From Deltaproteobacteria bacterium (GTDB lineage Bacteria > Desulfobacterota > Binatia > HRBIN30 > JACQVA1), in assembly GCA_016178705.1 (NCBI GenBank), contig JACOST010000015.1:1-64000 (forward strand): a stretch of 64,000 bases of DNA. The letters run 5' to 3'. The notes beneath the pieces were generated by a model, which ran no database searches, had not been told where the DNA came from, and was given only the letters and a program-made list of their open reading frames with translations. The stretch's first letter is position 1. Each line of letters opens with the position of its first letter. The position numbers and the translations under genes are program-made. Positions 5,772 through 27,029 of this stretch are shown piece after piece.

Positions 5772-5772
5772 C

Positions 5773-6786: not shown

Positions 6787-6797
6787 GAACGCGGCTG

Positions 6798-6831: not shown

Positions 6832-6890
6832 TCGTGAGGCGTGACTCGTGCTCGTGGCTCGACGCGGACACGAACCACGAGCACGATTCC

Positions 6891-7937: not shown

Positions 7938-7960
7938 GTATTCCTCCCTTTCTCAGGCCG

Positions 7961-12263: not shown

Positions 12264-12266
12264 GGT

Positions 12267-12740
12267 CTAGCCCTCCGACGCCACAGGCGCCTGCGCTGCT
12301 GCGGGTGCTGGCGCGGCGAGCGGCGCGCCCGACTTGTGGCGCTCGCCGACCAAGAACGACATGCCGGGAAAACCAACCTGCTGTGTGCGCGCGAGGATCG
12401 CCCGTACGTCGCCATAGGTGAGGCTGGCATCGGCGCGCAGCACGAGTCGCCGATAGGGGTCGACGGCGTGTTCGGCGCTGAGATACTCGATCGCGCGGTC
12501 GAGATCGTAGTGCTCGCTGCCGATGATGTATTCGCCAGCTTTCGCCACGGTGACTTTGAGCGGATCGGCGAGTTTGATTTCAGGATCGGGATTGAAAATT
12601 CCCGGCAACTCGACCTGCACGTCCTGATCGAGTCGGGGCACGACTACCATGAAGATGATCAGCAGCACGAGAACGACGTCGACGAGCGGCGTGACGTTGA
12701 TCTCAGGCTGGACCCCGGCGCTGAGTGGAGGAACTCTCAC
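12267..12740 (-). CDS. exbD: ExbD/TolR-family biopolymer transport protein
   Basis: 157 residues. The transmembrane helix carries the conserved Asp21 in NVTPLVDVVLVLLIIFMVV; the periplasmic domain contains VLRADASLTYGDVRAILARTQQVG, typical of ExbD. The tail is Ala/Pro-rich. The start overlaps the exbB stop by 4 bp (ATGA). With ExbB it converts proton flow into motion of TonB. Confidence 0.92.
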   Translation of the reverse strand: MRVPPLSAGVQPEINVTPLVDVVLVLLIIFMVVVPRLDQDVQVELPGIFNPDPEIKLADPLKVTVAKAGEYIIGSEHYDLDRAIEYLSAEHAVDPYRRLVLRADASLTYGDVRAILARTQQVGFPGMSFLVGERHKSGAPLAAPAPAAAQAPVASEG

Positions 12741-13519
12741 GCGACACCTTCCGCGCTTGCGACGGCGGCAAGTCCGGAGCGATGTTCGACGCGATCGGGA
12801 CGCGCCGGCGTTGCCGCGGTTCGCGCCCCACGGCTTGCGGTCGCGACCTTGCGCTCCGCCCAGTCCTCCAAGGTGTCGAGCAACTGCCCCGACGCGTGGT
12901 TGAGCATCAACTCATCGTGCGCGATTTGGCCCGAGAGATAGTTGAACGCCAGCACCGCCGGGATCGCGACGGCGAGGCCGAGCGCCGTTTCGATCAACGC
13001 TTCGGAGATTCCCGCCGATACGCCGGACAGCCCGCCGGAGCCCGTCGACGCGATGCCTTGGAACGCCGTGATGATCCCCAGCACGGTTCCGAGGAGGCCG
13101 ACGAACGGAGCTACTGACCCCACCGTTGCGAGCACGGCCAGTCCACGCCGCAAATCGGTTCCGATCTCTTGCATGTAGCGCTCCATGTGACGCACGGTGC
13201 GCTCGACCGGAGTCAGTCCCGTCACATCGGCGGTCTGCTCGGCGTGGCGATAGGTGGTGAGCGCCGAGCGTACCACACGCGGTAAGTGACCTTGCTGGTG
13301 CTTCTCGGCTTCGATCAACACCTCGTCGAACTCGCCGCGATCCATCTGCGATCCCACGGCGGTCGCGAACGTGCGCGAAGTTGCGCGCGAGCGGCGCAGC
13401 GTGATGACGCGCTCGGCGAACACGGTCAGCGAAGCCAGGCCCATGGTGACCAGAACCGCCGCAACCACCATCGCGGGCACGCCCATGTGCTGGAAGATTT
13501 CGATGAAATTGAATTGCAT
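12737..13519 (-). CDS. exbB: MotA/TolQ/ExbB proton-channel protein
   Basis: 260 residues with three membrane helices: about 12-35, then in VGSVAPFVGLLGTVLGIITAF and IETALGLAVAIPAVLAFNYL, both conserved ExbB channel segments. A cytoplasmic loop lies between the first two. The ATG at 13519 (MQFNFIEIFQ) has AGAGGAG about 9 nt upstream; the longer open frame upstream runs through tonB and is a shadow. It forms the pentameric motor with the ExbD proteins and drives the TonB encoded 26 bp upstream. Confidence 0.92.
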   Translation of the reverse strand: MQFNFIEIFQHMGVPAMVVAAVLVTMGLASLTVFAERVITLRRSRATSRTFATAVGSQMDRGEFDEVLIEAEKHQQGHLPRVVRSALTTYRHAEQTADVTGLTPVERTVRHMERYMQEIGTDLRRGLAVLATVGSVAPFVGLLGTVLGIITAFQGIASTGSGGLSGVSAGISEALIETALGLAVAIPAVLAFNYLSGQIAHDELMLNHASGQLLDTLEDWAERKVATASRGARTAATPARPDRVEHRSGLAAVASAEGVA

Positions 13520-13545
13520 CGTGCATTCTCCTCTGCCTGTATTCG

Positions 13546-14310
13546 TCAGGCATTCAATTTGAACGGAATCTGAATGATTCGGTACACCGTGATCGGGAGC
13601 CCTTTGTAGCGAGCCGGTTCGTACTTCCAGGTCTTCACCGCTTGCACTGCGGCGCTGACGAATGGCTCGTCGCCGCGCATCACCTGCACGTCGGCGACGC
13701 GACCGTTGGCCAGAATCACGACCTTCAAAATCACCGTCCCGGTCTGGCCATTGGCGCGCGCTTCCTGCGGGTACGCAGGCACCGCATTGCTCTTCGCCGG
13801 CAGCGGCGGCACCGCGTCCTCGGGCAACGTGATCGCGCCCACTTGGCCGCCGGCGACTCCGTCCTTCGAACCACCTTCGAGTCCGGCCGGATCGCCGTCG
13901 CCGGGCTCGCCGAACACCGCGATACCTTTGTCCTGACTCGGGTCCGCTTCCAGCGGCGCGGCTTGCGGCATCTCCTTCGGGGCGACCAGCTCTTTCGGCG
14001 GGGGCGGCTTGTCGAGTTGGCGAATCTTCTGATCGGGGCGCACCACCGGTGCGGCGGCGGGCGGGGGCTGGGGCTTCGCCTCCGCAACCGGTGGTGGGGG
14101 GGGTGGGGGTTCTTCCTTGACGATCTTCTCGACGAACGTGACGTCGACGGGTTTCTCGCTCACCAGTTCCTTGGTGCCAAATCCCAGTGCGACTGCCGCG
14201 AGGACGATCCCGGCGTAGACGCCCGATGACGTAAACAGTGCCGCGAACCACTGGCGGGGCACTCGCTCGGTGTCGCCATAGTGACCGAAGCTGACGAAGG
14301 TCTGACTCAT
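13546..14310 (-). CDS. tonB: Energy transducer TonB
   Basis: 254 residues. Cytoplasmic N-terminus, one membrane anchor (about 23-45), a Pro-rich periplasmic span (EEPPPPPPPVAEAKPQPPP and later PPPPKEL) and a C-terminal TonB domain (about 170-253) with YPQEARANGQTGTVILKVVI and VSAAVQAVKTWKYEPARYKG. It energises outer-membrane receptors; the receptor at 19826-22645 is the only one in the window and the natural partner. First gene of tonB-exbB-exbD-exbD, with a Pho-box-like site about 87-104 bp upstream. Confidence 0.93.
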   Translation of the reverse strand: MSQTFVSFGHYGDTERVPRQWFAALFTSSGVYAGIVLAAVALGFGTKELVSEKPVDVTFVEKIVKEEPPPPPPPVAEAKPQPPPAAAPVVRPDQKIRQLDKPPPPKELVAPKEMPQAAPLEADPSQDKGIAVFGEPGDGDPAGLEGGSKDGVAGGQVGAITLPEDAVPPLPAKSNAVPAYPQEARANGQTGTVILKVVILANGRVADVQVMRGDEPFVSAAVQAVKTWKYEPARYKGLPITVYRIIQIPFKLNA

Positions 14311-14451: not shown

Positions 14452-15036
14452 TCAGTTGTTGCTGTTGAATCCGATGAACTTGTACTGGCTGCCGACTTCG
14501 GCGATCGTGCCCGTTCGCAACTCGCGTTGCTCACCGAACTCATTGAGTACGAGCAGTCGCACATCTCCGTGCGCAGTGTACGCGGCGAACTGGCGGCTGC
14601 CCTTGGTGAAGCGTAGTTCTCGGCGCGCCAATGCGCGGCCACCGAATCCTTCGAAGAGGACTCGGGCAACGTCTTCGCTCTTCTGGTTCAACACGCGCCA
14701 GAAGAACACGCTTGGGGCGTCGGCCACTTCGCGCAGGGGTTCGCCGGGTTTGACGGTGCCGGGAATGATGATCGTGCGATACTCTTCCTCGGTCACGCGC
14801 AAGCGAGTGAGGGCGTGCTCGTCCTTGGTTTGCAGGGCAATCAGGAATTCATCCAACAGTGCGTCGATCGAGCTGGCGCCGCCGTCGAGGTGAAAGCCGG
14901 TTGGCGGTGGCGGCGCGGCGGAGTTGGTGCTGCTCAGATCGATGCGCACGGCGGCGGAGCCCGCCGAGGCGAGGCGCGCCGCGACAACGATCGTTACTGC
15001 CACTACGGTGCTGAACGATGAATGCGTGCGATGCAT
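14452..15036 (-). CDS. Secreted protein of unknown function
   Basis: 194 residues with a signal peptide (about 1-26). The mature part has a Pro-rich start, then a mixed alpha/beta domain with SIDALLDEFLIALQTKDEHALTRLRVTEEEY, which resembles the start of SnoaL/NTF2-like or 'DUF4440-type' domains but is not diagnostic. The ATG at 15036 has AAGGAGA upstream; a TTG further out is less likely. It lies downstream of two other minus-strand secreted-protein genes and may be the last gene of that operon, although a hairpin intervenes. Confidence 0.7.
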   Translation of the reverse strand: MHRTHSSFSTVVAVTIVVAARLASAGSAAVRIDLSSTNSAAPPPPTGFHLDGGASSIDALLDEFLIALQTKDEHALTRLRVTEEEYRTIIIPGTVKPGEPLREVADAPSVFFWRVLNQKSEDVARVLFEGFGGRALARRELRFTKGSRQFAAYTAHGDVRLLVLNEFGEQRELRTGTIAEVGSQYKFIGFNSNN

Positions 15037-15067
15037 GGGATCGGTCTCCTTAGTCCGCAAGAGAATC

Positions 15068-15155: not shown

Positions 15156-16865
15156 TTAGTTCACGTCGAAGCTGATCCACCGATCGAAACTGTTGCTGCC
15201 AAAGCCGGTGTCCAGCCAGTTCGCTCCGGGACCACCCGCGGGATCAAACGCCCCGATGTAGTTGGTGGTATCGAAGTAGTCGCTGATCGCGTGGCAATCA
15301 GTGGCCGGCGGGAACCCGGTGGTCGCCGACGGTATCAGATTCGGAAGCGTCGCCGGGTAGCCGGCGGTGACCGTCGCGAACGTAGTCGGAATGTTCGGGA
15401 CGATCGTGCCGCCCCCCGCGGCCGGGAAGACGCTCTTGGTCGTATTCCACAGGCCGTACACTTGCGTCGCTGTGCAAGCGCCGGCAGTGGCCTGCATCAT
15501 CGAGTTCTGCGTGGTCGTCCCGTCGCCGTTGTTGTAGCAGAGCGTGTTCTCGACCAGCAAAAATGGATCGCTGGTCTTGAGTGCCGGCCCGGCGGTGCAG
15601 GCGAAGTTGGTGGTGGTATTGTCCGCGCTCCGGATGCATGACAGGCCATAGTTGGCGACGATCGCGTTGGCCACGGTGCCAGCGGTGCCGCGACGAAAGA
15701 ACAACCCGGCCTCGCTGCCGATGTTCGGGTCGTTGTCCTTGGCGCCGATCATCGTCAGGTTGCAGAACTTCGGATTCGAACGCGGCAGATCGTCGAAACC
15801 GAACTCGCTGTTGTCGGCCTCGATGCCGCGGCTCTGCTTACCGGTTTGCAGGACGGGTCCGTATTGCACTTGCAGGCCGTACTGTCTGCTGCCGGTGGTG
15901 CCGAGCTGATAATCGAAGCCGTCGTCGGCACAACCCGATGACACAAAGTACTTCAGGTTGACCGTGCCGCCGAACCACTCGATGCAATCATCGCCGCCCT
16001 GATTGGCCTGGATGTGGTGCATCAGGGTCTGATTGCCAACGCCGTTCAACGTGAGGATGTTGAGCTCGTTGTTGGGCGTGAACTCGATGCCCGAGAACTC
16101 CACCCGGGTGTAGGTCATCACGCCGCTGCTGTCGCTGGCGTCGCAGCCACCGTATGCGGCCGGGATGCCCTCTGCGGTGTTGACGCAGTTCGGACGGTTG
16201 ACAGTGGACTTGCCGTTGAGCAACACGCCACCCCAATCGCCGACGCTGCGCGATCCGACGGGCTGACCGCTGGTGAAGATGATTGGCTTCTGTGGCGTGC
16301 CCTGGGCGTCGATCTTCGAGCCGGGCAGGAAGATCAGCACGGCGGGATTGACCGTGCCGCTGCCCTTGCCTTTGACGACGGTGCCGGGCTTGACCGTGAC
16401 GACCGTGGTTGATTGCCCGACCGGGGTATCGACGAAGACGATACCCTCGATCTGAATGGTGCAGGTGTCCGGCCAGGTCTGGTTTGCGAGGATGGAGCCC
16501 GCCGCAATTTTGTGCAGCGGCTTGCCGGTGTCCGGATCCGCCCCGTCGGTACACGACACCACCGGGCCCGGACCCGTGCAGCTATCGAAGAGTGTCTTGA
16601 GGCCGGCGAGCTTCGCCACCAGATTGGTGAGGTCTTGGATGTCGATGGTGTTGTCCTTCAACACATCGCAATCCGGTTTGTTGACGCCACAGTCGCCGGC
16701 GGCGGCGATCACGCCAGCGAGCGACAGTGCGTCGGCTACGTCGACGCTGCCGTTCTTGTTCACGTCGCCGCAAGCGGCGCCGGCCACCGACGGCGCGCTC
16801 GTGAGCGCTACCGCGGTTGCTAGCCCAGCGAGCCAAGCTGGTATGGACTTCCACGTGTGAGCCAT
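15156..16865 (-). CDS. Secreted beta-helix-like protein with N-terminal dockerin-type repeats
   Basis: 569 residues. Signal peptide (about 1-31), then two calcium-loop repeats of dockerin type within about 35-90 (CGDVNKNGSVDVADALSL and DVLKDNTIDIQDLTNLVAKL). The large remainder has right-handed beta-helix character (WGGVLLNGKS, GDDCIEWFGGTVNLKYFVSSG, SEAGLFFRRGTAGTVANAIV), like surface or extracellular proteins of myxobacteria and Bacteroidetes. The ATG at 16865 is chosen because AAGGAG lies 9 nt upstream; two in-frame ATGs 18 and 27 bp further upstream are alternatives. It follows the large Cys-rich gene by about 37 bp and is probably in its operon. Ligand unknown. Confidence 0.75.
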   Translation of the reverse strand: MAHTWKSIPAWLAGLATAVALTSAPSVAGAACGDVNKNGSVDVADALSLAGVIAAAGDCGVNKPDCDVLKDNTIDIQDLTNLVAKLAGLKTLFDSCTGPGPVVSCTDGADPDTGKPLHKIAAGSILANQTWPDTCTIQIEGIVFVDTPVGQSTTVVTVKPGTVVKGKGSGTVNPAVLIFLPGSKIDAQGTPQKPIIFTSGQPVGSRSVGDWGGVLLNGKSTVNRPNCVNTAEGIPAAYGGCDASDSSGVMTYTRVEFSGIEFTPNNELNILTLNGVGNQTLMHHIQANQGGDDCIEWFGGTVNLKYFVSSGCADDGFDYQLGTTGSRQYGLQVQYGPVLQTGKQSRGIEADNSEFGFDDLPRSNPKFCNLTMIGAKDNDPNIGSEAGLFFRRGTAGTVANAIVANYGLSCIRSADNTTTNFACTAGPALKTSDPFLLVENTLCYNNGDGTTTQNSMMQATAGACTATQVYGLWNTTKSVFPAAGGGTIVPNIPTTFATVTAGYPATLPNLIPSATTGFPPATDCHAISDYFDTTNYIGAFDPAGGPGANWLDTGFGSNSFDRWISFDVN

Positions 16866-16902
16866 CGTTATCTTCTCCTTCATCCTGATCATGGGTGCCT
16901 CC

Positions 16903-19338
16903 CTAGAAGATCGTCACCGAGCAGGTGACGCCCGACACCGCGTTGTTGTTGTTGTCCGCCGCCGACTCCACCCAGCAGTGGAACTGGTCGTTGGTTGGCG
17001 CGCTGGCGCCTTGACAACTGTCGACCTGGACGCCGAAGGCGACGCCGGGGAACATCGCGCCGTTGTTGGCGATGAGCGCCGCGCGTAGCGCGTAGTTCAA
17101 GTCGTTGACGGTCGAGAAGGCATCGAACGGCACGGTCAGCCGATCTTGGACCGATTGCTCGTTGCCCGACCCCGGAATGCTGACGACGCCGTCGGGGTAC
17201 TCAACGTACACCGAGAGGCCCGCCAACTCGGTGCCTGCGGGTGCGTCGAAACTCACGAGTATGAAGCGTTGCGGCGCCACCGGTGTGCACGCGCCGACCA
17301 CGCAGTTCGCCGGGCACGCGTCGCCACTGACTGCGTTGCCGTCGTCACACGTTTCGATCGGATTGCAGACGCCGGGGCTGGTGCAATCCAAACTGCTGGC
17401 GCAGAGCTTGGCTGCGTCGTTGCTGCACGTGCCATCGATCTTGCCGTTGCCGCACAGCGGGTTGCACTGAGAGAACAGCGCGCCTTCGGATGGCGTCGCC
17501 ATACGGTTGAGGCAGTCGACTTTGAACTCGGTGATGCACTCGAGGCAATTGGCGAGATCTTGCAGGGTCTTGATTTCGCCGCGACCGTCAGTGCCGGCGC
17601 ACGACGTGGCCGCGCCGGGCACAGTCAGGTTCGGACAGGTCAGCAGATTGCCAATCGAATCCGGGGCGAGGTCGAGATCGACCGCCGCGGTGCCACCGAA
17701 CGCCTTGTCCTTCCCTGCGCAAGCCGTTCTGATGTCCTTCAACAGCTTGTTTTGCGCCGTGGTGATCTTGTCGCTCGCGGCGACATCCGGACAGGTGCCG
17801 CTGCCGGCCTTGAGTACGGCGTCTTCGCACTTCTGCAGCACGTCGCGTTTCTTGTCGAAGAAGAGGTCGACGGCCTTGGCGGTTGCTTGCTTGCAGGAAT
17901 CAATCGCCTTCTCGATCAACTTGCACTTGCCTGGTGCGGTGCAATCCGTATCGGTCGTGCAGGACTTGCCGAAGTCGGTTCCTTTGTCGCACGACTTCGC
18001 GAACGGTTTCAGATCGAGATAGGCGAGAGTGTTGACCTGATCGACCGACGCTTCGCCGTTACAGGCGAGGCAGTTGGCCACGTCGGCAGGGGAGGTGAGT
18101 GCGAAGCTGCAGCCGATCTTGCACGTTCCGGACGGGCAATCCGCTACGATAGCGCACGCCTTGCCATTGTTGCTACCGCCGTCACAGGTCTGCACGGCCG
18201 GGAGCTTGTTGTTCTCGAAGTTCGGGCAGCGATCGGCGGGCGAACAGATGCCCGCACCTGCGCGCAGGTGTGTCTCGCCCGCGGCCGCAGTGCAGAATCC
18301 GCCGGAGCAGCTTCCCACTCCGCCGCCGAGGCACGCGTCCGCCGGGGCTGCGCAGGAGCCGCCGCCGGTGCAGTCGGTTGCGGCCACCTTGCACGGGGTG
18401 CCGTCATTCGTGCCGCCCGTGCACAATTTGCCGCAGTCCGCAGCGGCGGTCGCTTGGGTACAGGAGTGGTTGATGAAGGCGCCGAGAGCGCAGATGCCGC
18501 AATCCTTGTCGGCGGCGCACAGCGCTTCCTGACAAAGGCCGGCGACGCAATCTTCGAGCTTGCCGGTGTTGCAACCGTTGTCGCAGATGCCGGCGCCGCA
18601 ATCCGATTTCGCGGAGCAGTTCTTCCCGGGGGTGGCTCCGCCGACACAGATCCCTAAGTTACCGGATGATCCACCGTCGCAGGTCGTTTTCCACGGGCAG
18701 GCTCCGCCGCCCGTTTCGCATGTGACTTTCGTTGGGTCGGTATCGCAGGCCAGACCGTTGTTCGCTCCGCCGACGCAGTTGGCGTGAACACACGCATGGT
18801 TCTGGCAGCTGGAGTTGAACGTGCAGGACTGAGTACTCTTTTCGCCACCCTGACACTGGCCGGGACACTCGGTCTCGCGTGCGCAATCTTCCCCCGGCCG
18901 ATCGCCGGCCGAACACCGCTTGGCGAGCACGGGATTTCCCGCTGCGCCGGTGCCGGCCCAGCCGATCGCCGCCAGTGCCAGATCGGCGCCATCGCCGCTC
19001 CCGCTGCCGCAGGCCTTATCGCTGCCGCAACAGTCCTTCGAGATATCGGCCTGCAATTTTGTCAATGCTTTGGTGATCGCGGGCGCGGTCGTGACCGCCT
19101 CGGTCTGGCAGTCGGTATCGGCCGCCATCTTGCCCTTGCGTTTCTTGTCTTCACATTTCTGCAGCGCCTTCAGCTTGGCGCGCTCAAAGGTTGCCGATGA
19201 TTTCGCCATGGTCTTCTTGCAGGTGAGGGCGTTGGCCGGCAGCGCGTGCGCAGGGCGCGCGCTCAGTCCCATCAGCAGTATGGCCGCCGCCACTGCGCCA
19301 TACGTCCACCTTCGACGTCTTGAATTGTCGTGATACAT
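16903..19338 (-). CDS. Large secreted cysteine-rich protein with C-terminal shared module (copy A)
   Basis: 811 residues. Signal peptide (about 1-33). Two helical Cys/Lys-rich segments (TCKKTMAKSSATFERAKLKALQKCEDKKRKG near the start and LFFDKKRDVLQKCEDAVLKA mid-protein) flank a long array of CxxGxNxGxxCxxDxDC-type repeats. After a CGNG...ETCDDGNAVSGDACPANC motif (DUF4215-like) comes a roughly 125-residue module containing LAGLSVYVEYPDG, SIPGSG, NDLNYALR and QVDSCQG, shared with four proteins of the receptor operon. The ATG at 19338 has AAGGAG 7-8 nt upstream. Many cysteines imply disulfide bonding outside the cytoplasm. A Pho-box-like site lies upstream. Function unknown. Confidence 0.75.
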   Translation of the reverse strand: MYHDNSRRRRWTYGAVAAAILLMGLSARPAHALPANALTCKKTMAKSSATFERAKLKALQKCEDKKRKGKMAADTDCQTEAVTTAPAITKALTKLQADISKDCCGSDKACGSGSGDGADLALAAIGWAGTGAAGNPVLAKRCSAGDRPGEDCARETECPGQCQGGEKSTQSCTFNSSCQNHACVHANCVGGANNGLACDTDPTKVTCETGGGACPWKTTCDGGSSGNLGICVGGATPGKNCSAKSDCGAGICDNGCNTGKLEDCVAGLCQEALCAADKDCGICALGAFINHSCTQATAAADCGKLCTGGTNDGTPCKVAATDCTGGGSCAAPADACLGGGVGSCSGGFCTAAAGETHLRAGAGICSPADRCPNFENNKLPAVQTCDGGSNNGKACAIVADCPSGTCKIGCSFALTSPADVANCLACNGEASVDQVNTLAYLDLKPFAKSCDKGTDFGKSCTTDTDCTAPGKCKLIEKAIDSCKQATAKAVDLFFDKKRDVLQKCEDAVLKAGSGTCPDVAASDKITTAQNKLLKDIRTACAGKDKAFGGTAAVDLDLAPDSIGNLLTCPNLTVPGAATSCAGTDGRGEIKTLQDLANCLECITEFKVDCLNRMATPSEGALFSQCNPLCGNGKIDGTCSNDAAKLCASSLDCTSPGVCNPIETCDDGNAVSGDACPANCVVGACTPVAPQRFILVSFDAPAGTELAGLSVYVEYPDGVVSIPGSGNEQSVQDRLTVPFDAFSTVNDLNYALRAALIANNGAMFPGVAFGVQVDSCQGASAPTNDQFHCWVESAADNNNNAVSGVTCSVTIF

Positions 19339-19586
19339 TCCGCGTCTCCTTCCGTTGTGTTGTGCGTCACGCTTGGAACGTAACGCAGCGTTTGGGGGCC
19401 CGTCGCGCATCGCTGGCGTCCAACCTCTGATGCGCGGCGGGCGATCTCTTGGTTGATCGTCCCTCCGAATTCTCTCCGTCCACCTCCGCTCGCCTCATCA
19501 TCTCTGCTTTGTCCGCACAGCGCGCTCGCGCTGCGATCGCAGTGGCTCCCTTCTCTGCGCCGTCCTGAGTTCGTGTAAACGTGCGC

Positions 19587-19708: not shown

Positions 19709-19742
19709 GCGTAACCGCGCCGTAACTCACGCCGGGTATTTC
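19709..19742 (+). promoter_or_regulatory. Pho-box-like site and -10 before the TonB-dependent receptor
   Basis: GCGTAAC-CGCG-CCGTAAC at 19709-19726, a clear 11-bp direct repeat of CGTAAC, followed after exactly 10 nt by TATTTC (19737-19742). Predicted transcription begins near 19749, giving a leader of about 77 nt. The GTAAC core matches the pstC box; TG is replaced by CG in both half-sites. Confidence 0.6.
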
Positions 19743-19825: not shown

Positions 19826-22645
19826 ATGAGGATCATGTTGCGAAGATCGGCCGAGATCGTGTGCGTGCTCCTGATGGTCTGGGTCGCACTGCGCGCTCAG
19901 GTGTCGGCGCAATCCGGTGCACCGGACCAGGGCACCATTGCCGGCAAGGTGATCGACAAGTCGACCGGCGATCCAATCATCGAGGCGGGCATAGAAGTAA
20001 CTAACACGGGCAAGCGCGTGCGCACGGACATCGATGGCAAGTACACGCTCAAGCTTCCGGCGGGGACATACGAACTGCGGGTCTTCGCACCGCTGTATCA
20101 AGGCACGCGGCTGCAGCGCGTGGTGGTGAGGGGAAACGACGTGACCCACGCCGACGCGGCGCTAGCGCCCGAGGGCCAGGCTGGCGTCGAGGTTGTCGAA
20201 GTCGTCGCCCAAGCCGACAAGGCGTCCGAGGTTACGCAGCTCGTCGAGCGCAAGAACGCGGCGGTGGTCAGTGACAACATCGGAGCGCAGACGATCACGA
20301 AGTCGCCCGACTCGAACGCCGGCGAAGTGGTCAAGCGGGTCCCCGCGGTAACGGTCCAGAACGACAAGTTCATTGTGGTGCGCGGTTTGGGCGAGCGTTA
20401 CAGCAGCGCGCTGCTCAACGGCAGCCGCTTGCCGAGCACCGATCCGAACAAGCGTGTCGTGCCGCTCGACTTATTTCCGAGCGAGTTCATCGAGTCGCTA
20501 TCGGTCGTCAAGACGTACACACCCAATCTGCCCGGCGATTTCTCCGGCGGCCTCGTCGACATCCGCTTGAAGGATTTTCCCGAGCAACTGACCGCCAATC
20601 TCGGGGTCTCCACCGGCGGCAACACCAATGCCGTGTTCCAAGAGTTCAACACCTATCACGGCAGCTCGCTCGACTACCTCGGGTTCGGGGCCGGCAATCG
20701 CGCGTTGCCCGGCGCGATCCCGAGTCAAAGCATCGGCACACCGCCACCGGCGCAGCAGCGCGCGTATGCGAGCGCATTCGAAAACGTGTGGAGTGTCGAA
20801 CCGATGACCGCGCCGCCGAACTATCGCCTCACGGGTTCGGTCGGCAATACCTTCGGTCCGATGGGGGCGGCGCTCGGTGCGGTCTACTCGACCGAATACA
20901 ACCGACACCCGGGCGAGTTCCAGCAGAACTTCACCACCAAAGGTTTGCCCGGCGAGCCGATCACGATTCTGCCGCTCGAAAACTTTACCTTCGATCGGGA
21001 CACCTTCACGACTCGAATCGGCGCCGTTCTGTCTACGGGCTACAAGCTGACGCCCACTGACAAGCTGACGCTCAAGGGGCTGGTGGATCGCAGCACGAAG
21101 GATGAAGTCGACGACGGCCAGGGGAGTGATCGCAACAACCCCGATCAGCCACTGCACCAGTGGCAGCTACAAGAGATCGAAGAGCAACTGGGCTACGGGC
21201 AACTCGCCGGCACGCACCGGTGGTCGGTGGTGGACGTCGATTGGCGCTCGGCGCTGTCGCAGACGACTCAGGACCAACCCGACACGCGTTTCGTGACCTA
21301 CAACTTGCCGACGTCATTGAACGGACTGACGGCGCCGCAGTTGGTTGCCGCCGGGGAAGGGCCGGAGTCGTTGGTGCGGCTGTACGGCAATCTCGACGAG
21401 TACCTCACCGATTCCGCGCTCGACTTCACCGTGCCGTTCAAAACCGGGTTGCCGTACACGGACGTCTGGTCGGGTCTACCGGCCAAGTTCAAGTTTGGCC
21501 CCGCCTACGCCTATCGTCATCGCAACTTCAGTCTCCGCCGTTTTCTCTACAATCGCGTGTCGACGGTGGGCGTCGATACCAGCGCGTCGCCGGAAGTCCA
21601 GCTCCAGCCCGCGAACATCCCGGAGAACTACAGCTTCAAAGAAGGGACGCGTAAGCAAGACTCCTTCGAGGCGAGTCAGGAGATCATCGGCGGGTATGGC
21701 ATGTTCGATCTGCCGCTGGTTCCGGACCGCCTGCGACTCGTCGCCGGCGTGCGGGTGGAGTACTCATACATTTCCCTCAACACCGCGGACTTCATCGGCA
21801 ACCCGGTCTCGCCAAAGATCAACGACACATCGCCGCTCCCGGGCATCAATCTGATTTACAGCCCGCGCGACGACATGAACTTCCGCTACGGCTACAGCCA
21901 GTCGGTGTCGCGGCCCGAGTTCCGCGAACTGACACCGACGATCTTTCCGGTGCCCAACGGCGCGCGTCCGGTGATCGGCAACCCCAACTTGCAGACCGCG
22001 AACATCACCAGCAACGACTGGCGCTGGGAATGGTTCTTTGCGCCGGCCGAGATCGTCTCGTTCAGCGTGTTTTACAAGCAGTTCACCAATCCGATCGAGC
22101 AAACGGTGATCGGCCTGCCCGGCGGTGAAGCGGATTCGTTCCGCAACGCCGACAACGCCGACTTGGTCGGTTTCGAGTTCGAAGGGCGGAAGAATCTTGG
22201 ATTCGTATCGCCCTACTTGGCAAACGTAAACCTGTCGACCAACGTCGCCTACATCAGCTCCAGCGTTAACGTTGGCCCGCAGCAGGGCACGGAGGTGCAA
22301 ACGTCCAGCAGCCGCTCGCTGCAAGGCCAAGCCGACTACGTGGTCAACTCGGCGCTCGAGTACGACCATCCGACGTGGGGCACCGCCCGTCTGTTGTACA
22401 ACACCGTCGGCGCGAACATCGTGGCCGCCGGCGCCAATCGACTCCCGGATATCACCCAACAGCCGACCAACGTCCTCGATCTGGTGTTGATCACCAAGAT
22501 CAATCCGTTTGGGACACCGCTCACCGCAAAGCTGAGCGCCGAGAACATGCTCGACGAGCAGGTCGTGCAGAGCCAAGGCAGCTTCGTCGCCAGCAGTTAC
22601 ACCACGGGCGTGAAATTCACCTTCGGGCTTTCGTATTCGTACTGA
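19826..22645 (+). CDS. TonB-dependent outer-membrane receptor with N-terminal carboxypeptidase-regulatory-like domain
   Basis: 939 residues. Signal peptide (about 1-30), then a beta-sandwich CarboxypepD_reg-like domain (about 36-115: GTIAGKVIDKSTGDPIIEAGIEV ... GKYTLKLPAGTYEL), a plug domain (DSNAGEVVKRVPAVTVQ, FIVVRGLGERYSSALLNG, LPGDFSGGLVDIRLKDFP) and a 22-strand-type barrel ending FTFGLSYSY. It imports an unknown ligand using TonB/ExbBD energy. It heads an operon of secreted proteins and a HEAT protein and is preceded by a Pho-box-like site, so a phosphorus-related substrate is a hypothesis. ATG 19826 or ATG 19835 could be the start; the peptide works for both. Confidence 0.92.
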   Translation: MRIMLRRSAEIVCVLLMVWVALRAQVSAQSGAPDQGTIAGKVIDKSTGDPIIEAGIEVTNTGKRVRTDIDGKYTLKLPAGTYELRVFAPLYQGTRLQRVVVRGNDVTHADAALAPEGQAGVEVVEVVAQADKASEVTQLVERKNAAVVSDNIGAQTITKSPDSNAGEVVKRVPAVTVQNDKFIVVRGLGERYSSALLNGSRLPSTDPNKRVVPLDLFPSEFIESLSVVKTYTPNLPGDFSGGLVDIRLKDFPEQLTANLGVSTGGNTNAVFQEFNTYHGSSLDYLGFGAGNRALPGAIPSQSIGTPPPAQQRAYASAFENVWSVEPMTAPPNYRLTGSVGNTFGPMGAALGAVYSTEYNRHPGEFQQNFTTKGLPGEPITILPLENFTFDRDTFTTRIGAVLSTGYKLTPTDKLTLKGLVDRSTKDEVDDGQGSDRNNPDQPLHQWQLQEIEEQLGYGQLAGTHRWSVVDVDWRSALSQTTQDQPDTRFVTYNLPTSLNGLTAPQLVAAGEGPESLVRLYGNLDEYLTDSALDFTVPFKTGLPYTDVWSGLPAKFKFGPAYAYRHRNFSLRRFLYNRVSTVGVDTSASPEVQLQPANIPENYSFKEGTRKQDSFEASQEIIGGYGMFDLPLVPDRLRLVAGVRVEYSYISLNTADFIGNPVSPKINDTSPLPGINLIYSPRDDMNFRYGYSQSVSRPEFRELTPTIFPVPNGARPVIGNPNLQTANITSNDWRWEWFFAPAEIVSFSVFYKQFTNPIEQTVIGLPGGEADSFRNADNADLVGFEFEGRKNLGFVSPYLANVNLSTNVAYISSSVNVGPQQGTEVQTSSSRSLQGQADYVVNSALEYDHPTWGTARLLYNTVGANIVAAGANRLPDITQQPTNVLDLVLITKINPFGTPLTAKLSAENMLDEQVVQSQGSFVASSYTTGVKFTFGLSYSY

Positions 22646-22661
22646 TCAGGAGGATGAACCC

Positions 22662-23474
22662 ATGACACGCATACTGTCACGTTGGTGGAGTGGCCCGTCG
22701 ATCCTACTACTCACGATCACCTGCGCCGCTGCGGTGCGTGCGCAATGCACCGGGGATTGCGACGGCAGTGGCGCGGTTACGGTCGATGAGTTGGTTGTTG
22801 GCGTGAGCATCGCGCTGGGTACGGTCACGGTCGACCACTGCCCGTCCTTCGACAGCGACCACAGCAACAGTGTGACCGTGGATGAGTTGGTCGTCGCCGT
22901 TAACGCCGCGCTCAACACCTGTCCGAGTGGGACGACGCCAACGCCGTCACCGACGGTGACGCCGACGCCGATGGGACCGCGCTGCGGCGACCACATCGTC
23001 CAATTCGACCGAGGTGAGACGTGTGACGATGGCAATACGGTCGACGGCGACAATTGTCCGGCGACCTGCGTGATTCACACCTGCGCCTCGGCAGGTACCA
23101 CGCTAGATCTCGACGTCAGCTTCACGCCGCCAGTCGGCGTGGATATCGCGGGCATCACCGTGTTCCTCCGCTATCCCGACGACCTCGTGCGCATTCCGGG
23201 GATGGCCAGCGACGCCGCCGTGCAGGATCGACTGTCGAACCTTCCCGACAATACCTTCGCCACGCCGAACGATCTCGACTATGCCCTGCGCCTGGTGATG
23301 TTGTCCCCCGACACGTCACCGATCCTGCCCGGGCTGCTGTTCTCGGTGCAGTTCGACGCCTGTCAGAGCGCGCGCGTTCCGACGGCGGCTGATTTCCGCT
23401 GTGTGGCCGAGGATGCCGCCAATACCGATCTCGATGCGGTAGCCGGTGTGACGTGTACGGTCGCGGTTCGTTGA
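22662..23474 (+). CDS. Secreted protein: dockerin-like repeats + CDDGN motif + shared module (copy B)
   Basis: 270 residues. Signal peptide (about 1-27). Two calcium-loop repeats form an EF-hand/dockerin-like pair (GDCDGSGAVTVDELVVGV and FDSDHSNSVTVDELVVAV, about 30-88). A short Thr/Pro linker follows, then CGDHIVQFDRGETCDDGNTVDGDNCPATC (DUF4215-like, about 107-135) and the roughly 120-residue shared module with IAGITVFLRYPDD, NDLDYALR and SVQFDACQS. AGGAGG lies 8 nt before the ATG; the gap to the receptor gene is 16 bp. It is the only protein here carrying both dockerin-like repeats and the shared module. Function unknown. Confidence 0.78.
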   Translation: MTRILSRWWSGPSILLLTITCAAAVRAQCTGDCDGSGAVTVDELVVGVSIALGTVTVDHCPSFDSDHSNSVTVDELVVAVNAALNTCPSGTTPTPSPTVTPTPMGPRCGDHIVQFDRGETCDDGNTVDGDNCPATCVIHTCASAGTTLDLDVSFTPPVGVDIAGITVFLRYPDDLVRIPGMASDAAVQDRLSNLPDNTFATPNDLDYALRLVMLSPDTSPILPGLLFSVQFDACQSARVPTAADFRCVAEDAANTDLDAVAGVTCTVAVR

Positions 23475-23507
23475 GCATCGCAAAGCCGATTGCGCGAGGC
23501 TGATCGA

Positions 23508-24899
23508 ATGACGCGTACCACCACCGTTCTGAGTGCGATGAGTCTCATCGTCGCATCGTTGATTGCAGGGTGCGGCGGCGACAAGAGCAGCACCAGCTCG
23601 TTCCCGCCGCCGCCGCGCTCGGTGCGTTACACGCCGAAGGCGACTTCGACGCGAGCCATCCGGACCAGCTCGCCAACCTACCCACCGTCGCGAACGCGAA
23701 CGTTCACCCTGACGCCGACGATCACGAACACGCCCGAGCCAACGGCGTCGCCGACCGCGACGAGTTCGCCCACCGGAACATTCAGCGCCACCGCGATCCC
23801 TACGGCCAGCGCTAGTGCGACCGACACCTTCACCGCAACGTTACCGAGTACGGCGACGCCGATCGCCAGTTCCACGCCAAGCTCGTCCCCGAGTCACTCC
23901 TCAACGCCGACTGCGACCTTTACGGCCACCGAATCGGTTACCGCCTCTCCAACACCGACGGTCACATTGACGCCGACCGCATCGCTGACGGCCACGGCGA
24001 CCGGTACTGCCACGATGACCCCGACAGATACGCAGACAACGACAGCGACCGCGACGCCGTCGGAAACACCGTCGGGGACGGTGACAAGTACGCGCACGGC
24101 TACGTCCACCGTCACGCAAACGAGCACGGCGATGTTCACCGCGACCGTGACGGAAACCACTACGGCGTCTCCAACCCCGTCGGTCACATCGACGCCGACC
24201 GCATCGGCGACCGCAACGAATAGCGCAACGCCGTCGGTCACGCCGACGCTGTCGTCATCACCGACCGCTACGGCAACCGCGACGATCACCAACACGCCGC
24301 TGCCGACCGGCACGCCATCGGCCACGAGTACGCAGACTGAAACCGGTACGCCGACGCAGACGCCGGAGGACACCGAAACCCCGACGGCGACGCCGACGCC
24401 GACCAGCACGCCGACGTCTGTAGCGACGTCGACCGCATCCACGGTCTGCGGCAACGGCTTCATCGAGAGCGGCGAGACCTGCACCACCTGCGCGTCCGAC
24501 TGCGTCGTGCATGCGTGTACCGCGACCACGCCGCTGCGCACTTTTGCGGTGAGGTTCACGGCGCCGACAGGGCAGGACGTGTCGGGCATCACGGTGTTGG
24601 TCGGCTACCGCAGTGGCACCGTAAGTCTGCCCGGCAGCGGCAGCGCGAGTTCAGTCGGCAGCCGCGTAAAGAACAAGCCGTCGAACGCGATCTCAGCGGT
24701 CAACGACAGCGACTACGCGCTGCGGGTGGTGTTGTCGCGCTCCGCCGCAATTCCTCCGGGCCGACTGTTTACCATCGACTTCGATAGTTGTCAGGGCGCC
24801 GCAGCGCTGGCGGTGACCGACTTCGGTTGCACGGTCGAGGGTTGCGCCAATGTCTTCGGCGCCGTGCAAGGCTGCACCTGCACGGTCGGCACGCCCTAG
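23508..24899 (+). CDS. Lipoprotein with very long Thr/Pro/Ser stalk and shared module (copy C)
   Basis: 463 residues. The N-terminus MTRTTTVLSAMSLIVASLIAG-C ends in a lipobox (LIAGC), so it is probably a lipoprotein. Residues about 25-311 are a low-complexity Thr/Pro/Ser/Ala stalk (TPTxT units) without cysteine. Then come CGNGFIESGETCTTCASDC and the shared module (VSGITVLVGYRSG, LPGSG, NDSDYALRVVLS, FTIDFDSCQG, CTVEGCAN). The design suggests a lipid-anchored stalk holding the module far from the membrane. ATG 23508 is preferred over an in-frame TTG 18 bp upstream because it starts the signal peptide correctly. Confidence 0.75.
   Translation: MTRTTTVLSAMSLIVASLIAGCGGDKSSTSSFPPPPRSVRYTPKATSTRAIRTSSPTYPPSRTRTFTLTPTITNTPEPTASPTATSSPTGTFSATAIPTASASATDTFTATLPSTATPIASSTPSSSPSHSSTPTATFTATESVTASPTPTVTLTPTASLTATATGTATMTPTDTQTTTATATPSETPSGTVTSTRTATSTVTQTSTAMFTATVTETTTASPTPSVTSTPTASATATNSATPSVTPTLSSSPTATATATITNTPLPTGTPSATSTQTETGTPTQTPEDTETPTATPTPTSTPTSVATSTASTVCGNGFIESGETCTTCASDCVVHACTATTPLRTFAVRFTAPTGQDVSGITVLVGYRSGTVSLPGSGSASSVGSRVKNKPSNAISAVNDSDYALRVVLSRSAAIPPGRLFTIDFDSCQGAAALAVTDFGCTVEGCANVFGAVQGCTCTVGTP
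23640..24440 (+). repeat. Low-complexity Thr/Pro-coding repeat tract
   Basis: A degenerate repetition of ACG/ACC/CCG codons encoding the stalk of the lipoprotein. Period is not strict; units such as ACGCCGAC recur. The complementary strand has a long open frame rich in GVxVxV, a by-product of the repetitive composition. A similar tract is at 43735-44745 in another gene. Confidence 0.75.
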
Positions 24900-24936
24900 C
24901 CGCGAATGTAGGCGCCTGAACATGGAGCTAGCTAGC

Positions 24937-25809
24937 ATGAACGTGTTCCGCTCGATCGTGTTGCCGGCGATGGTCGTGCTGCTGATGGCGCTGGGGGCTT
25001 GCGGCGGGGGTGGCAGCAGTGGTGAGAGTCCGTTTGTTCTCTGCGGCAACGGCCATCTCGACCAGGGCGAAAAGTGCGACGACGGCAACACGCTCGACAG
25101 CGATGATTGCCTGAGCACTTGTGTGCTCGCCGTCTGTGGTGATGGGTTCGTCGATCTCAACAGCGAGGAATGTGACGGCGACGCTTTGCGCGGCCGCGAC
25201 TGCTCGACCCTCGGCTATGCCGCGGGCAAGCTGATCTGCTCAGCGACGTGTCGATTCGACACCTCGCAGTGCGGGCCTGCGTTCACACCAACTCCCACAG
25301 TGCTCGCGACCGGCACTCCGACACCAACCGCAACCCCGACTCCGTTGACTCGTTGCGGCAACGGCGTGCTCGAGAGTGGCGAGACGTGTGATGCTTGTCC
25401 GGGCGACTGCTCGGTATCCGCATGCTCAGCAGTGGCTCCAGGCGTGACGGTTTCAGTGAGCTACGATTCGCCCGATGACAGTATTGCCGGGCTGACGGTG
25501 TTGGTCGGCTACCGCAGTAGCGTCGCCAACCTTCCGGGAAGCGGATCGATGGCCAGCGTAGCCGCGCGAGTGAAGAACAAACCCTCGAACGCGATCACCG
25601 CGGTCAACGATCTCGACTATGCACTGCGCGTCGTGCTGTCACGCGCGAATCCAATCCCGCTCGGCCGCATCTTCACGATCGACTTCGACGCGTGCGACAC
25701 CGCGCCGCCACCAGCCGCGGTAGACTTTGGCTGTACGGTCGAAGGCTGCGCCAACCGCTTCGGACGAGTCGACGGGTGTACGTGTGTCGTCACGGTGGGA
25801 GGACAATGA
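24937..25809 (+). CDS. Lipoprotein with cysteine-rich repeats and shared module (copy D)
   Basis: 290 residues. MNVFRSIVLPAMVVLLMALGA-C forms a lipoprotein signal (LGAC). Two CGNG/CGDG-type motifs follow (CGNGHLDQGEKCDDGNTLDSDDC and CGDGFVDLNSEECDGDALRG), the second with a GYAxGxLxCxxxCxxDxxxC extension typical of secreted myxobacterial-type proteins. A short Thr/Pro linker, CGNGVLESGETCDACPGDC and the shared module complete it (IAGLTVLVGYRSS, NDLDYALRVVLS, FTIDFDACD, CTVEGCAN). GGAG precedes ATG 24937; another ATG 15 bp upstream is possible. Its stop overlaps the next start by 1 bp. Confidence 0.77.
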   Translation: MNVFRSIVLPAMVVLLMALGACGGGGSSGESPFVLCGNGHLDQGEKCDDGNTLDSDDCLSTCVLAVCGDGFVDLNSEECDGDALRGRDCSTLGYAAGKLICSATCRFDTSQCGPAFTPTPTVLATGTPTPTATPTPLTRCGNGVLESGETCDACPGDCSVSACSAVAPGVTVSVSYDSPDDSIAGLTVLVGYRSSVANLPGSGSMASVAARVKNKPSNAITAVNDLDYALRVVLSRANPIPLGRIFTIDFDACDTAPPPAAVDFGCTVEGCANRFGRVDGCTCVVTVGGQ

Positions 25810-26336
25810 TGGACAGGCGCGGATGGATTGGGTGCGGTATCGCCACACTGCTCGTTGTTACTGCGGGCATCGCGTCCGCCATGTGCGGCAACGGGTTGCT
25901 CGACAACGGCGAGACCTGCGCGAATTGTCCCGCCGACTGCGCGGTCCAGCCGTGCGCGGCCACCACGGCGCGGCACACAGTGACGGTGAACGCGTCCGCA
26001 CCGGAGGAGCAGCACGTCGCGGGGTTTACGATCGTGGTTGGCTACCGCGGTGCAGTGCTCAGTCTCCCCGGGCAGGGCGCCGATAGCTCCGTGCGCGAGC
26101 GCGTGAAGAACACGCCCACCGAGGCCATCGTGGCGGCGTATGATCGCGACTACGCGCTGCGCGTAGTGGTGTCGCGCAGCAGCGCGATTCCTTCGGGTCG
26201 GCTGTTGACGGTCGATTTCGACGGCTGTAGCGGCGCTGCCGCTCCAACGACGGCGGATGTTTCCTGCATGGTCGAGGGCTGCGCCAATCAATTCGGCGCG
26301 GTGGTGGATTGTACGTGCTCCATCACATTGCCGTGA
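25809..26336 (+). CDS. Small secreted protein, minimal form of the shared module (copy E)
   Basis: 175 residues: a signal peptide (1-24, ending GIASA), one CGNGLLDNGETCANCPADC motif and the module only (VAGFTIVVGYRGA, LPGQG, DYALRVVVSRSS, LLTVDFDGCSG, MVEGCAN). This defines the minimal building block of the family. GGAGG lies 5-9 nt before the ATG, which overlaps the previous stop (TGATG). Probably disulfide-bonded and extracellular or periplasmic. Function unknown. Confidence 0.78.
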   Translation: MDRRGWIGCGIATLLVVTAGIASAMCGNGLLDNGETCANCPADCAVQPCAATTARHTVTVNASAPEEQHVAGFTIVVGYRGAVLSLPGQGADSSVRERVKNTPTEAIVAAYDRDYALRVVVSRSSAIPSGRLLTVDFDGCSGAAAPTTADVSCMVEGCANQFGAVVDCTCSITLP

Positions 26337-26351
26337 CGCCGGAAGGGGCCA

Positions 26352-27029
26352 GTGAAGACTATGAACGGCCGCACAGTCACAATCGCAATGACGATAGTCA
26401 GCATTACCGGAGGTGTCTGGCTCTTGCGCGGGCAGTCGACGAGCCCCACGCCGCCGCTTGCGGACCTGCACGTCGCTGGGACCTCGCCGTCCAAGCAGCT
26501 ACTCACGGCCGATCATCCCCGACCGCTCGACTTGCCCGCGAATCACAATGCCGCCATGGCGCATGGCGCGGCTGACGCGCATGAGCGGCCGGCCCCGGCA
26601 ACTCACGAGCTCAGGCTGCTGCCGCCCGCGCCTGATGCGGTCGAGGCTGACCCGGAACTGCAAGCACTTGATCAGATCGCGTCGAGCGATCCCGATCCGA
26701 TCGAGCGGGCCGCCGCGCTCAGCCGGCTGCACACCGTGACGACGCGGTCCGTGCTGCCGCTCTTGGTGCGGGCGTTCGCCGATGCGGACGCCGAGGTGCG
26801 GCGGACGGCACTCGAAGAGATCGCCTGGTCGGATGAAGAGGACATGATACGGGCGGCGCAATTGGCCGGCGTGATGACCGACCCCGATCCCGACGTGAGG
26901 ATCGCGGCGCTGCGCATTCTCGGCGAGATCGAAGACCCCGACGCGGAGCCGATGATCCGCGATGCGTTGGCGGACCCCGATGACGATGTGCAAGCGCTCG
27001 CGGCGGATCTCTTGGACAACGATTCCTGA
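26352..27029 (+). CDS. Membrane-anchored HEAT-repeat protein
   Basis: 225 residues. A short hydrophobic segment near the N-terminus (about 9-25) is followed by a Pro/His-rich linker and about four HEAT repeats (about 95-225), e.g. DPIERAAALSRLHTV, DADAEVRRTALEEIAWS, DPDVRIAALRILGEIED and DPDDDVQALAADLLDN. HEAT repeats mediate protein contacts; it could scaffold the secreted proteins encoded upstream. GTG 26352 is used because GGAAGGGG lies just upstream; ATG 26361 is the alternative. It is the last gene of the receptor operon. Confidence 0.75.
   Translation: MKTMNGRTVTIAMTIVSITGGVWLLRGQSTSPTPPLADLHVAGTSPSKQLLTADHPRPLDLPANHNAAMAHGAADAHERPAPATHELRLLPPAPDAVEADPELQALDQIASSDPDPIERAAALSRLHTVTTRSVLPLLVRAFADADAEVRRTALEEIAWSDEEDMIRAAQLAGVMTDPDPDVRIAALRILGEIEDPDAEPMIRDALADPDDDVQALAADLLDNDS

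Follow-up and report, generated by a model that had tools for sequence, protein, structure and literature searches.

What is held together at a locus where a TonB-dependent receptor gene is surrounded by genes for exported proteins that share a module for which Pfam and NCBIfam scans return no family? The question arises in the window analysed here, a stretch of 64,000 nucleotides, for which an earlier note had placed a receptor gene, four genes for secreted proteins or lipoproteins and a HEAT gene in one operon (19826-27029) and had proposed an undescribed uptake system. The ORFs lie as placed, all on the + strand, and neighbouring genes overlap by 4 bases or are separated by about 15-37, according to the start codon chosen. 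A simple signal/lipobox filter agrees that two of the four products are lipoproteins and two are secreted, the latter with ordinary signal peptides. In place of strong internal terminators, just two weak 5-bp stems were found on the + strand inside the operon, and terminator-like sites are rarer than expected in the scanned region (7 against a shuffle mean of 9.7). The TonB, ExbB and two ExbD genes said to be close by were also found. The relevant features are as follows.

3247..9424, - strand: phoU, pstB, pstA, pstC, pstS and a Porin_5 porin (domain scan)
9724..11399, + strand: GNAT (Acetyltransf_5) and acyltransferase pair (domain scan), which we take to be of the ornithine-lipid type by function
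11808..14310, - strand: exbD, exbD, exbB, tonB (domain scan)
14452..15060, - strand: secreted protein of ~200 aa (homologues at other loci)
15156..16892, - strand: secreted right-handed beta-helix protein, ElpS/FII-like, with N-terminal dockerin (domain scan, model, fold searches)
16608..16769, - strand: dockerin type I domain of the beta-helix protein (Pfam Dockerin_1, paired repeat, Foldseek)
16903..19410, - strand: secreted protein of 835 aa, transcribed away from the receptor gene; cohesin-like module at the C-terminus (16912-17304)
19710..19726, + strand: Pho-box-like direct repeat of 11 bp, CGTAACCGCGCCGTAAC, in the gap between the divergent units (pattern scan)
19826..22645, + strand: TonB-dependent receptor, 939 aa (ORF; CarboxypepD_reg, Plug and TonB beta-barrel domains)
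22662..23474, + strand: adaptor-like secreted protein of 270 aa with a paired EF-hand/dockerin-like part at the N-terminus, a cysteine-rich repeat and, at the C-terminus, the cohesin-like module 23067-23465 (ORF, domain scan, signal filter)
23505..24899, + strand: lipoprotein with long T/P linker; cohesin-like module at the C-terminus (24501-24887); start codon either at 23490 or at 23505 (ORF, module profile, lipobox filter)
24937..25809, + strand: lipoprotein in which cysteine-rich repeats accompany a cohesin-like module at the C-terminus (25408-25794); start codon not certain (ORF, module profile, lipobox filter)
25806..26336, + strand: secreted protein, hardly more than a single cohesin-like module 25938-26327 (ORF, module profile, signal filter)
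26352..27029, + strand: HEAT-repeat protein with N-terminal hydrophobic anchor (HEAT repeats by domain scan)

The receptor is TIGR01782-like, with a score under that model's cut-off. Several of its neighbours recur elsewhere: tonB-exbB-exbD genes adjoin the receptor in other loci of the class too, and the 14452..15060 protein is present in 17 class loci and is a neighbour of the helix gene at five loci from Acidobacteria/Vicinamibacteria. The HEAT protein had been counted as part of the system. Among the loci compared it occurs in the window only, in a search with a single query sequence over at most ~20 kb per locus, which a distant or divergent copy would escape; the protein is probably incidental.

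The module shared by the exported proteins measures ~130 aa and is present, as had been claimed, in five copies, which are 33-42% identical to the first copy and have 25 invariant columns. Searched against the whole genome (6.1 Mb), a profile of the five matches these alone, each at E <= 3e-60, and a wider, 52-row profile finds the same five copies and none else. When an AlphaFold model of the module at 23067-23465 (pLDDT 97.1, pTM 0.89) was compared with the PDB by Foldseek, ranks 1-44 of the best 50 were entries for cohesins or for scaffoldins that bear them (E 5.7e-4 at best; query TM 0.46-0.62). The best 50 entries in VIA-align are all of cohesin type by title (2o4e is titled as the interaction module of a GH84 enzyme), the best of them being 2jh2_C (Z 10.8, 2.9 A over 112 residues). 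A search of the PDB with the module sequence profile gave four weak matches, three of them cohesins (best E 0.064, 2xdh). None of 52 modules matches Pfam Cohesin PF00963 at E <= 1, and the module is therefore filed as a divergent cohesin-like family and not as Pfam Cohesin. The predicted fold suggests that it is a cohesin-type docking domain; its interpretation as a novel substrate-binding domain was dropped once the Foldseek and VIA searches had given this fold.

A candidate partner for such a domain is encoded by the divergent unit. The Dockerin_1 model matches the beta-helix protein with 23.6 bits in the genome search (cut-off 22.9) and 19.3 bits in the protein scan. The N-terminus has the two calcium-loop-plus-helix repeats of dockerin type I, with model helices at 14-24 and 47-58, and its model resembles the double dockerin 8x39_A in Foldseek (rmsd 1.4 over 57 columns, prob 1.00, E 0.092; no match of the helix-protein model reaches E <= 0.001). 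No dockerins are among the matches listed by VIA for the whole protein, because the helix fills that list; this is no evidence against the dockerin. The beta-helix fold (VIA Z 23.4, 3.6 A over 290 residues) is visible solely through the predicted model, as a sequence search of the PDB with the family gave no match at E <= 1. This gene had no place in the earlier note: it lies on the opposite strand, outside the interval considered there. Given a module with the predicted fold of a cohesin and a dockerin on the helix protein, the proposal of a module that binds something and passes it on to the receptor is not the one to prefer.

The receptor and the beta-helix protein form a widely conserved pair. 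In the class, 22 of 25 strong receptor matches have a helix gene no more than 5.3 kb away. Receptor homologues adjoin a helix gene in other phyla also; 72 of 80 named helix loci have a receptor, at a gap of <=250 bp in 60 of the 72, and the pair is present in 18 of 20 plasmid records among the matches listed. No cohesin was detected in 78 of the 80 named loci, most of which have a receptor, and the pair thus needs no cohesins in general.

Two such pairs have been described. In Caulobacter crescentus, according to excerpts of PMC2996285, the lipoprotein ElpS (CC0170) is an exoprotein made in phosphate starvation and encoded beside the TonB-dependent receptor CC0171, with type II secretion genes as neighbours; the authors pointed out there that ElpS and CC0171 co-occur across genomes, and reported that the receptor gene is expressed equally in rich and poor medium and that its deletion did not stop ElpS production. 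In Flavobacterium johnsoniae, excerpts of PMC8115612 describe a TBDT (Fjoh_0545) and a lipoprotein, FII (Fjoh_0546), induced by phosphate depletion (PUSIV), and an ElpS/FII-type lipoprotein as the most abundant exoprotein of phosphate-starved cells. The window too has a beta-helix exoprotein of pectin-lyase fold encoded next to a receptor of the same kind, a likeness to CC0170 and Fjoh_0546 drawn from synteny and published descriptions. A Flavobacterium fontis locus (L171), with relatives of the window's receptor and helix protein, shares the Fjoh layout; Indioceanicola has relatives of both followed by T2SS 'protein N', gspD, gspE and gspF, an order similar to the Caulobacter arrangement described in the excerpts of PMC2996285. 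The receptor system is hence not undescribed, because its layout is that of known phosphate-starvation pairs of Caulobacter and Flavobacterium. The window differs from the former in a helix protein that lacks a lipobox and bears a dockerin, and in the addition of five cohesin proteins; in the Flavobacterium system the helix protein is lipid-anchored, phoBR-type genes rather than pst lie alongside, and no cohesin was found in L171. Of the 26 class helix proteins, 21 were put through the lipobox filter and none passes, as against 44 of 77 at other named loci; the window protein is therefore a relative of the ElpS/FII pair, not ElpS itself. Thus the receptor-helix pair is of a known kind, and the shared cohesin-like module is the new part.

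Within the class, the helix protein tends to carry a dockerin where the locus has cohesins. In a table of 26 helix loci (21 at first, then five more; p values ignore relatedness), the paired dockerin repeat, scored by eye and unblinded, is present in 16 of 17 loci with cohesins versus one of nine without (p 5e-5), and a Pfam dockerin at E <= 0.2 in 13 of 17 versus one of nine (p 0.003). The Pfam scores are mostly weak in the helix proteins compared: only those of L045 and L056 exceed the cut-off, L249 reaches just E 0.42, and L048 and L051 give no match. One locus, G355, is a counter-example, having kept a cohesin although its helix protein has no dockerin. This exception, the lipoprotein cohesin genes that closely follow the receptor gene, and a beta-sandwich fold that could bind many things would all fit a reading in which the cohesin-like proteins bind receptor or substrate as SusD/SusE-like accessory lipoproteins and the helix dockerin serves another partner. 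Surface lipoproteins are indeed encoded after the TonB-dependent receptor in SusC/SusD and PusC/PusD systems, but a scan of ten locus proteins found no SusD-family Pfam domain at E <= 1. Such a role is unlikely in view of the close fold match to dockerin-binding cohesins, the way in which cohesin presence follows the dockerin on the helix protein, and the paucity of cohesins at named helix loci.

Dockerins and cohesins are not rare in these genomes, and one could suppose a coincidence of two common domain types, with a receptor-helix pair that works as in Caulobacter and modules that are adhesins or linkers. Seventeen dockerins exceed the Pfam cut-off on their own in this genome, which also has two Pfam-type cohesins elsewhere; cohesins of the latter type are present in 20 of the 145 class genomes surveyed. 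In the same survey, 34 of 104 strong modules (E <= 1e-10) lie away from both receptor and helix, five of the 24 genomes with strong modules hold neither receptor nor helix, and in family f102 the modules occur in other contexts. However, the remaining 70 strong modules lie within 20 kb of a receptor or helix gene, so that the family does not occur mostly apart from the receptor, which the earlier note would have taken as a refutation, 19 of the 24 genomes also hold one or the other, and this genome's five modules are all at the locus. Six further modules, in three other genomes, adjoin phoU-pst operons, and a protein combining a paired EF-hand or dockerin-like part with a cohesin adjoins the receptor in all seven same-order loci inspected. 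Also at variance with mere coincidence is an alternation of fusions. The five dockerin-less helix proteins outside family f3 bear another N-terminal domain instead, and the same domain precedes the cohesin in the receptor-adjacent protein of related genomes (50-66% identity, four compared). For domain X, the best match by far is the receptor-adjacent cohesin protein of a same-genus species (66% over the whole domain, E 2e-108; next match E 8e-48, with shorter stretches elsewhere up to 70%). Copies of domain Y without a detected cohesin match at 61% in G355 (C295) and 58% in G349 (C270). Both domains are multi-copy in these genomes, a point in favour of coincidence for which the fusions were given up as strong evidence on their own. 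With the distribution of the modules taken into account, coincidence appears quite unlikely.

Several observations connect the locus with phosphate. The phoU-pst-porin run adjoins the same locus in the window and in G378, and the neighbours in L171 are those of the phosphate-induced Fjoh cluster. Of the Pho-like sites reported before both units, the one between the divergent units holds: 19710-19726 is a perfect direct repeat, CGTAAC-N5-CGTAAC, from which the search pattern was itself derived. An E. coli-type Pho box at 9611, close to the porin gene, matches no better than expected by chance. A relaxed form of the repeat is found in 8 of 20 stretches upstream of class receptor genes, the window being one of the eight, versus a mean of 0.81 in random stretches from the same loci (none of 300 draws reached 8). 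The neighbourhood and these Pho-box-like repeats suggest that the locus may be regulated by phosphate starvation. TonB-dependent receptors mostly serve iron or glycans, and the helix model resembles alginate epimerases, polygalacturonases and phage tailspikes in fold searches. That the system imports something other than phosphorus (iron or a glycan, for example) and stands beside pst by chance seems very unlikely, given the phosphate neighbours in two genomes and the modules beside phoU-pst in three more, the upstream repeats, and the production of the Flavobacterium relatives and of Caulobacter ElpS in phosphate starvation, as recorded in excerpts of PMC8115612 and PMC2996285.

Comparison with the cellulosome brings out what is unusual here. 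The predicted folds of the module and of the helix N-terminus recall CipA, CipC and ScaB, as does the mixture of anchored, adaptor-like and free cohesin proteins. The locus differs in its outer-membrane setting and in the want of a Pfam Cohesin match, and no glycoside hydrolase domain was found at E <= 1 in the ten proteins scanned; it is not a set of dockerin-bearing plant-cell-wall hydrolases on a scaffoldin, and identity in the fold matches is ~9-17%. A cohesin fold outside cellulosomes has parallels in Archaeoglobus (2xdh) and in the GH84C/GH33 modules of Clostridium perfringens, and the top matches by profile (2xdh) and by VIA (2jh2) belong to this non-cellulosomal group; Peer and colleagues are said to have reported in 2009 that non-cellulosomal cohesin modules are widespread. 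To our knowledge, none has a connection with TonB receptors or phosphate, and among the matches listed in a search of open-licence papers no cohesin/dockerin system was linked with TonB or phosphate starvation.

What remains of the earlier reading is a phosphate-linked TonB locus with module-sharing surface or secreted proteins, shorn of the undescribed system and of substrate hand-over. It seems probable that the locus encodes an ElpS/CC0171-type phosphate-starvation outer-membrane uptake system rebuilt around cohesin-dockerin docking. At low phosphate, a PhoB-type regulator would switch on both divergent units. The beta-helix protein would be exported with its N-terminal dockerin but no lipid anchor. 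The cohesin proteins, of which two are lipoproteins, would sit on or outside the outer membrane and grip that dockerin; the dockerin-cohesin protein encoded directly after the receptor (22662..23474) is a possible adaptor. A phosphorus-mobilising helix protein would thereby be kept at the TonB-dependent receptor, which would take up the phosphorus compound so released, powered by the adjacent TonB-ExbB-ExbD set, PstSCAB taking over in the periplasm. We are evenly divided on a further proposition, namely that one class of uncultured diderm bacteria has a cellulosome-like phosphorus scaffold in which a private cohesin/dockerin family holds receptor, beta-helix exoprotein and TonB motor together, lipoprotein cohesins acting as anchors and dockerin-cohesin proteins as adaptors in replacement of the lipid anchor of other phyla. 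If the docking proposal is true, new docking pairs would be gained, and the complex could be rebuilt from purified parts with each contact testable, making the role of ElpS/FII-type proteins with their receptor directly testable. Cohesin-dockerin assembly would then extend from plant-fibre digestion to nutrient uptake across the outer membrane.

By gene content, the window (64% GC) looks like a phosphate island, in which the following features were recognized:

3247-9424, minus strand: phoU-pstB-pstA-pstC-pstS-porin
9724-11399, plus strand: GNAT/acyltransferase pair, presumably of the ornithine-lipid type
11808-14310, minus strand: exbD-exbD-exbB-tonB
14452-15060, minus strand: secreted protein of ~200 aa, no known family
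15156-16892, minus strand: beta-helix protein
16903-19410, minus strand: 835-aa module protein
19826-22645, plus strand: TonB-dependent receptor, divergent from the 835-aa gene
from the receptor to 27029, plus strand: four module proteins, then a HEAT protein

Rereading the ORFs and domains of the window bore out the gene list of an earlier note, which had proposed the receptor operon, with its module proteins and HEAT protein, as a candidate uptake system; its inventory named these genes but omitted the beta-helix gene, which proved to be key. Downstream of the operon (28097-36212) lie restriction-modification-like genes, with helicase-like and specificity-like subunits as judged by eye.

The receptor and the helix protein form an old pair, and one already known. 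In an even draw of 145 genomes from the class of the window genome, 25 matches to the receptor were strong (E <= 1e-81; two of these are partial), and helix loci numbered 26. The helix gene lies on the same contig, at most 5.3 kb away, for 22 of the 25 receptors, the other three being those of G367 C54 (cut by the contig end), G350 C254 and G305 C547. More widely, 80 named helix loci were retained from 579 relatives; 72 have a receptor at E < 1e-10 and, by hand count, fewer than 250 bp separate the two open frames in 60 of these 72. In plasmid records, the receptor is within 1.6 kb of the helix gene in at least 18 of the 20 listed (21 in total). The order in Indioceanicola (helix, receptor, T2SS "protein N", gspD, gspE, gspF) is much like the layout of elpS, cc0171 and T2SS genes in Caulobacter, as described in PMC2996285. 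In Flavobacterium fontis (L171), the order glycosyltransferase, histidine kinase, response regulator, receptor, helix lipoprotein is that of the phosphate-induced Fjoh_0541-0546 cluster, save OprP; FI-FIII are 31-36% identical to the Caulobacter lipoprotein (PMC8115612). In Caulobacter, the PhoB regulon takes in TonB receptors as well as the type II system (PMC11208175). The gene of the ~200-aa protein occurs at 17 loci of the class and, in Acidobacteria/Vicinamibacteria, next to the helix gene at five loci; its product may be a third partner of receptor and helix.

All five copies of the module (33-42% identical to the first) lie in the window locus, and profile searches of the whole genome found no other. 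Receptor loci of related genomes, searched with iterated profiles, yielded 52 modules for an alignment. When an AlphaFold model of the module (pLDDT 97.1, pTM 0.89) was compared with the PDB, cohesins or cohesin-bearing scaffoldins occupied ranks 1-44 of the best 50 Foldseek matches (best E 5.7e-4), and the best 50 VIA-align entries were all of cohesin/scaffoldin type, headed by 2jh2_C (Z 10.8, rmsd 2.9, 112 aligned). Of the four weak PDB matches of the module profile, three are to cohesins (best E 0.064) and one is to LptE. By its predicted structure, then, the module is cohesin-like. As none of the 52 modules matches Pfam Cohesin, the family is a divergent one.

The mature N-terminus of the beta-helix protein matches Dockerin_1 with 23.6 bits in the genome search (cut-off 22.9) and 19.3 bits in a single-protein scan. 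Modelled from 18 sequences (pLDDT 85), the protein is predicted to form a right-handed beta-helix (VIA Z 23.4, 3.6 A, 290 residues). The N-terminal part of the model superposes on 57 columns of 8x39_A, a double dockerin of solved structure, with an rmsd of 1.4 A (rank 38, prob 1.00, E 0.092). In all 7 same-order loci inspected (the window, L045, L047, L052, L053, L054 and L055, out of ten that also include L056, L249 and L250), the module protein encoded next to the receptor starts with a pair of EF-hand or dockerin-like repeats; Pfam EF-hand/dockerin scores there are all under cut-off, and L047 has none. This protein is reminiscent of adaptor scaffoldins. Genome-wide, 17 Dockerin_1 matches are above cut-off on their own (L085-L113); by eye, the carriers include FG-GAP-type repeat proteins and long T/P-rich proteins, and no obvious phosphatase was seen among them. 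A further match above cut-off in the window (43588-43734, minus strand) falls in a long T/P-rich frame distant from the receptor locus. A second cohesin-dockerin neighbourhood of the same genome lies at C31:33705-38500 (L228, 3705-8500): the gene of a lipoprotein-like protein, part of which resembles a Pfam-type cohesin, stands immediately before that of an 894-aa secreted protein whose N-terminus is dockerin-like.

The cohesins are an addition to the pair that is almost confined to this class. The module occurs in only 2 of the 80 named helix loci, both from class genomes already covered; across 395 genomes of the phylum, it is matched at E <= 1e-5 in 5, of which four belong to the class and one does not (E 2e-7). 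Of the 145 class genomes, 31 have a match at E <= 1e-3. With strong modules (E <= 1e-10), 19 genomes have module and receptor or helix, 5 the module only, 7 receptor or helix only and 114 none of these (Fisher p 8e-14, uncorrected for relatedness). The earlier note had suggested testing whether the module always accompanies this receptor; 70 of 104 modules at E <= 1e-10 have a receptor or helix gene no more than 20 kb away, and the other 34 do not. Six of these 34, in G323, G344 and G350, adjoin Pfam-confirmed phoU-pst operons and one, in G336, adjoins exbB-exbD-exbD-like genes (by eye); of the remaining 27, inspected in part, sixteen belong to family f102 and G367 and have other neighbours. 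Module proteins stand beside or flank phoU-pst at L221 (G323 C19), L222 (G344 C12) and L226 (G350 C999). At L207-L210 (f102), same-family modules are next to different unknown-function genes, without receptor or helix.

Cohesins are present at 17 of the 26 class helix loci. A paired dockerin repeat was seen by eye in 16 of the 17 corresponding helix proteins versus 1 of the 9 from loci without cohesins (p 5e-5), this one being from G318, where the locus is cut by a contig end and cohesins are on another contig. Pfam at a lenient E <= 0.2 gave 13/17 versus 1/9 (p 0.003). Four helix proteins of family f3 were scored as dockerin-less; the three inspected (L059, L060, L251) have a degenerate repeat by eye, unseen by Pfam. 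With f3 and G318 removed, p is 0.0008 (by eye) and 0.012 (Pfam). G367 displays both states, one contig with dockerin and cohesins and one locus with neither. The exception is G355, with a cohesin and no dockerin; at this locus (L246, C115), the beta-helix protein is fused to an N-terminal domain, Y, and the cohesin protein is encoded divergently upstream.

A simple lipobox filter, run on 21 of the 26 class helix proteins, passes none of them; 44 of 77 other named loci, their class membership unchecked, pass it and at least 4 more have a visible lipobox. In the helix proteins of L057, L058, L061 and L064, a ~260-330-aa stretch takes the dockerin's place, G355 being a fifth case. In related genomes, the same stretch is the front part of the cohesin protein adjoining the receptor (50-58% identity for L050 and L217, 66% for L049). 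Domain-cohesin plus dockerin-helix thus alternates with domain-helix, the fused order being that expected of a docked pair. A caveat is that both domains are multi-copy in these genomes: Y has 1-11 matches in 6 of 12 genomes, and the other such domain, X, has 1-34 in 12 of 13. By E-value, X is matched best by the receptor-adjacent cohesin protein of a congeneric species (66%, E 2e-108), the second-best match having E 8e-48. The closest non-helix copy of Y in G367 and G336 is also the receptor-adjacent cohesin protein, but G355 and G349 have copies just as close on which no cohesin was detected.

Direct repeats of 11 bp are found upstream of receptors in 8 of 20 stretches versus 0.81 expected; G093, with two overlapping loci, may have been counted double. 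Cohesins and dockerins exist outside cellulosomes; paper listings of the open-licence literature yielded none combined with the receptor-helix pair. Lipoprotein cohesins would tether the dockerin-bearing beta-helix protein to the cell surface, near the receptor, perhaps with the dockerin-cohesin adaptor as intermediate; the receptor, powered by TonB-ExbB-ExbD, would import the product, and Pst would then take over. Such a chain from cohesin tether to Pst is probable, and we infer every contact in it. ElpS, to which the helix protein is likened, reportedly raises extracellular phosphatase activity (PMC2996285, PMC11208175). From this effect and the glycan-active-like fold, our guess is that the helix protein may release phosphorus from glycan-like or other polymers.
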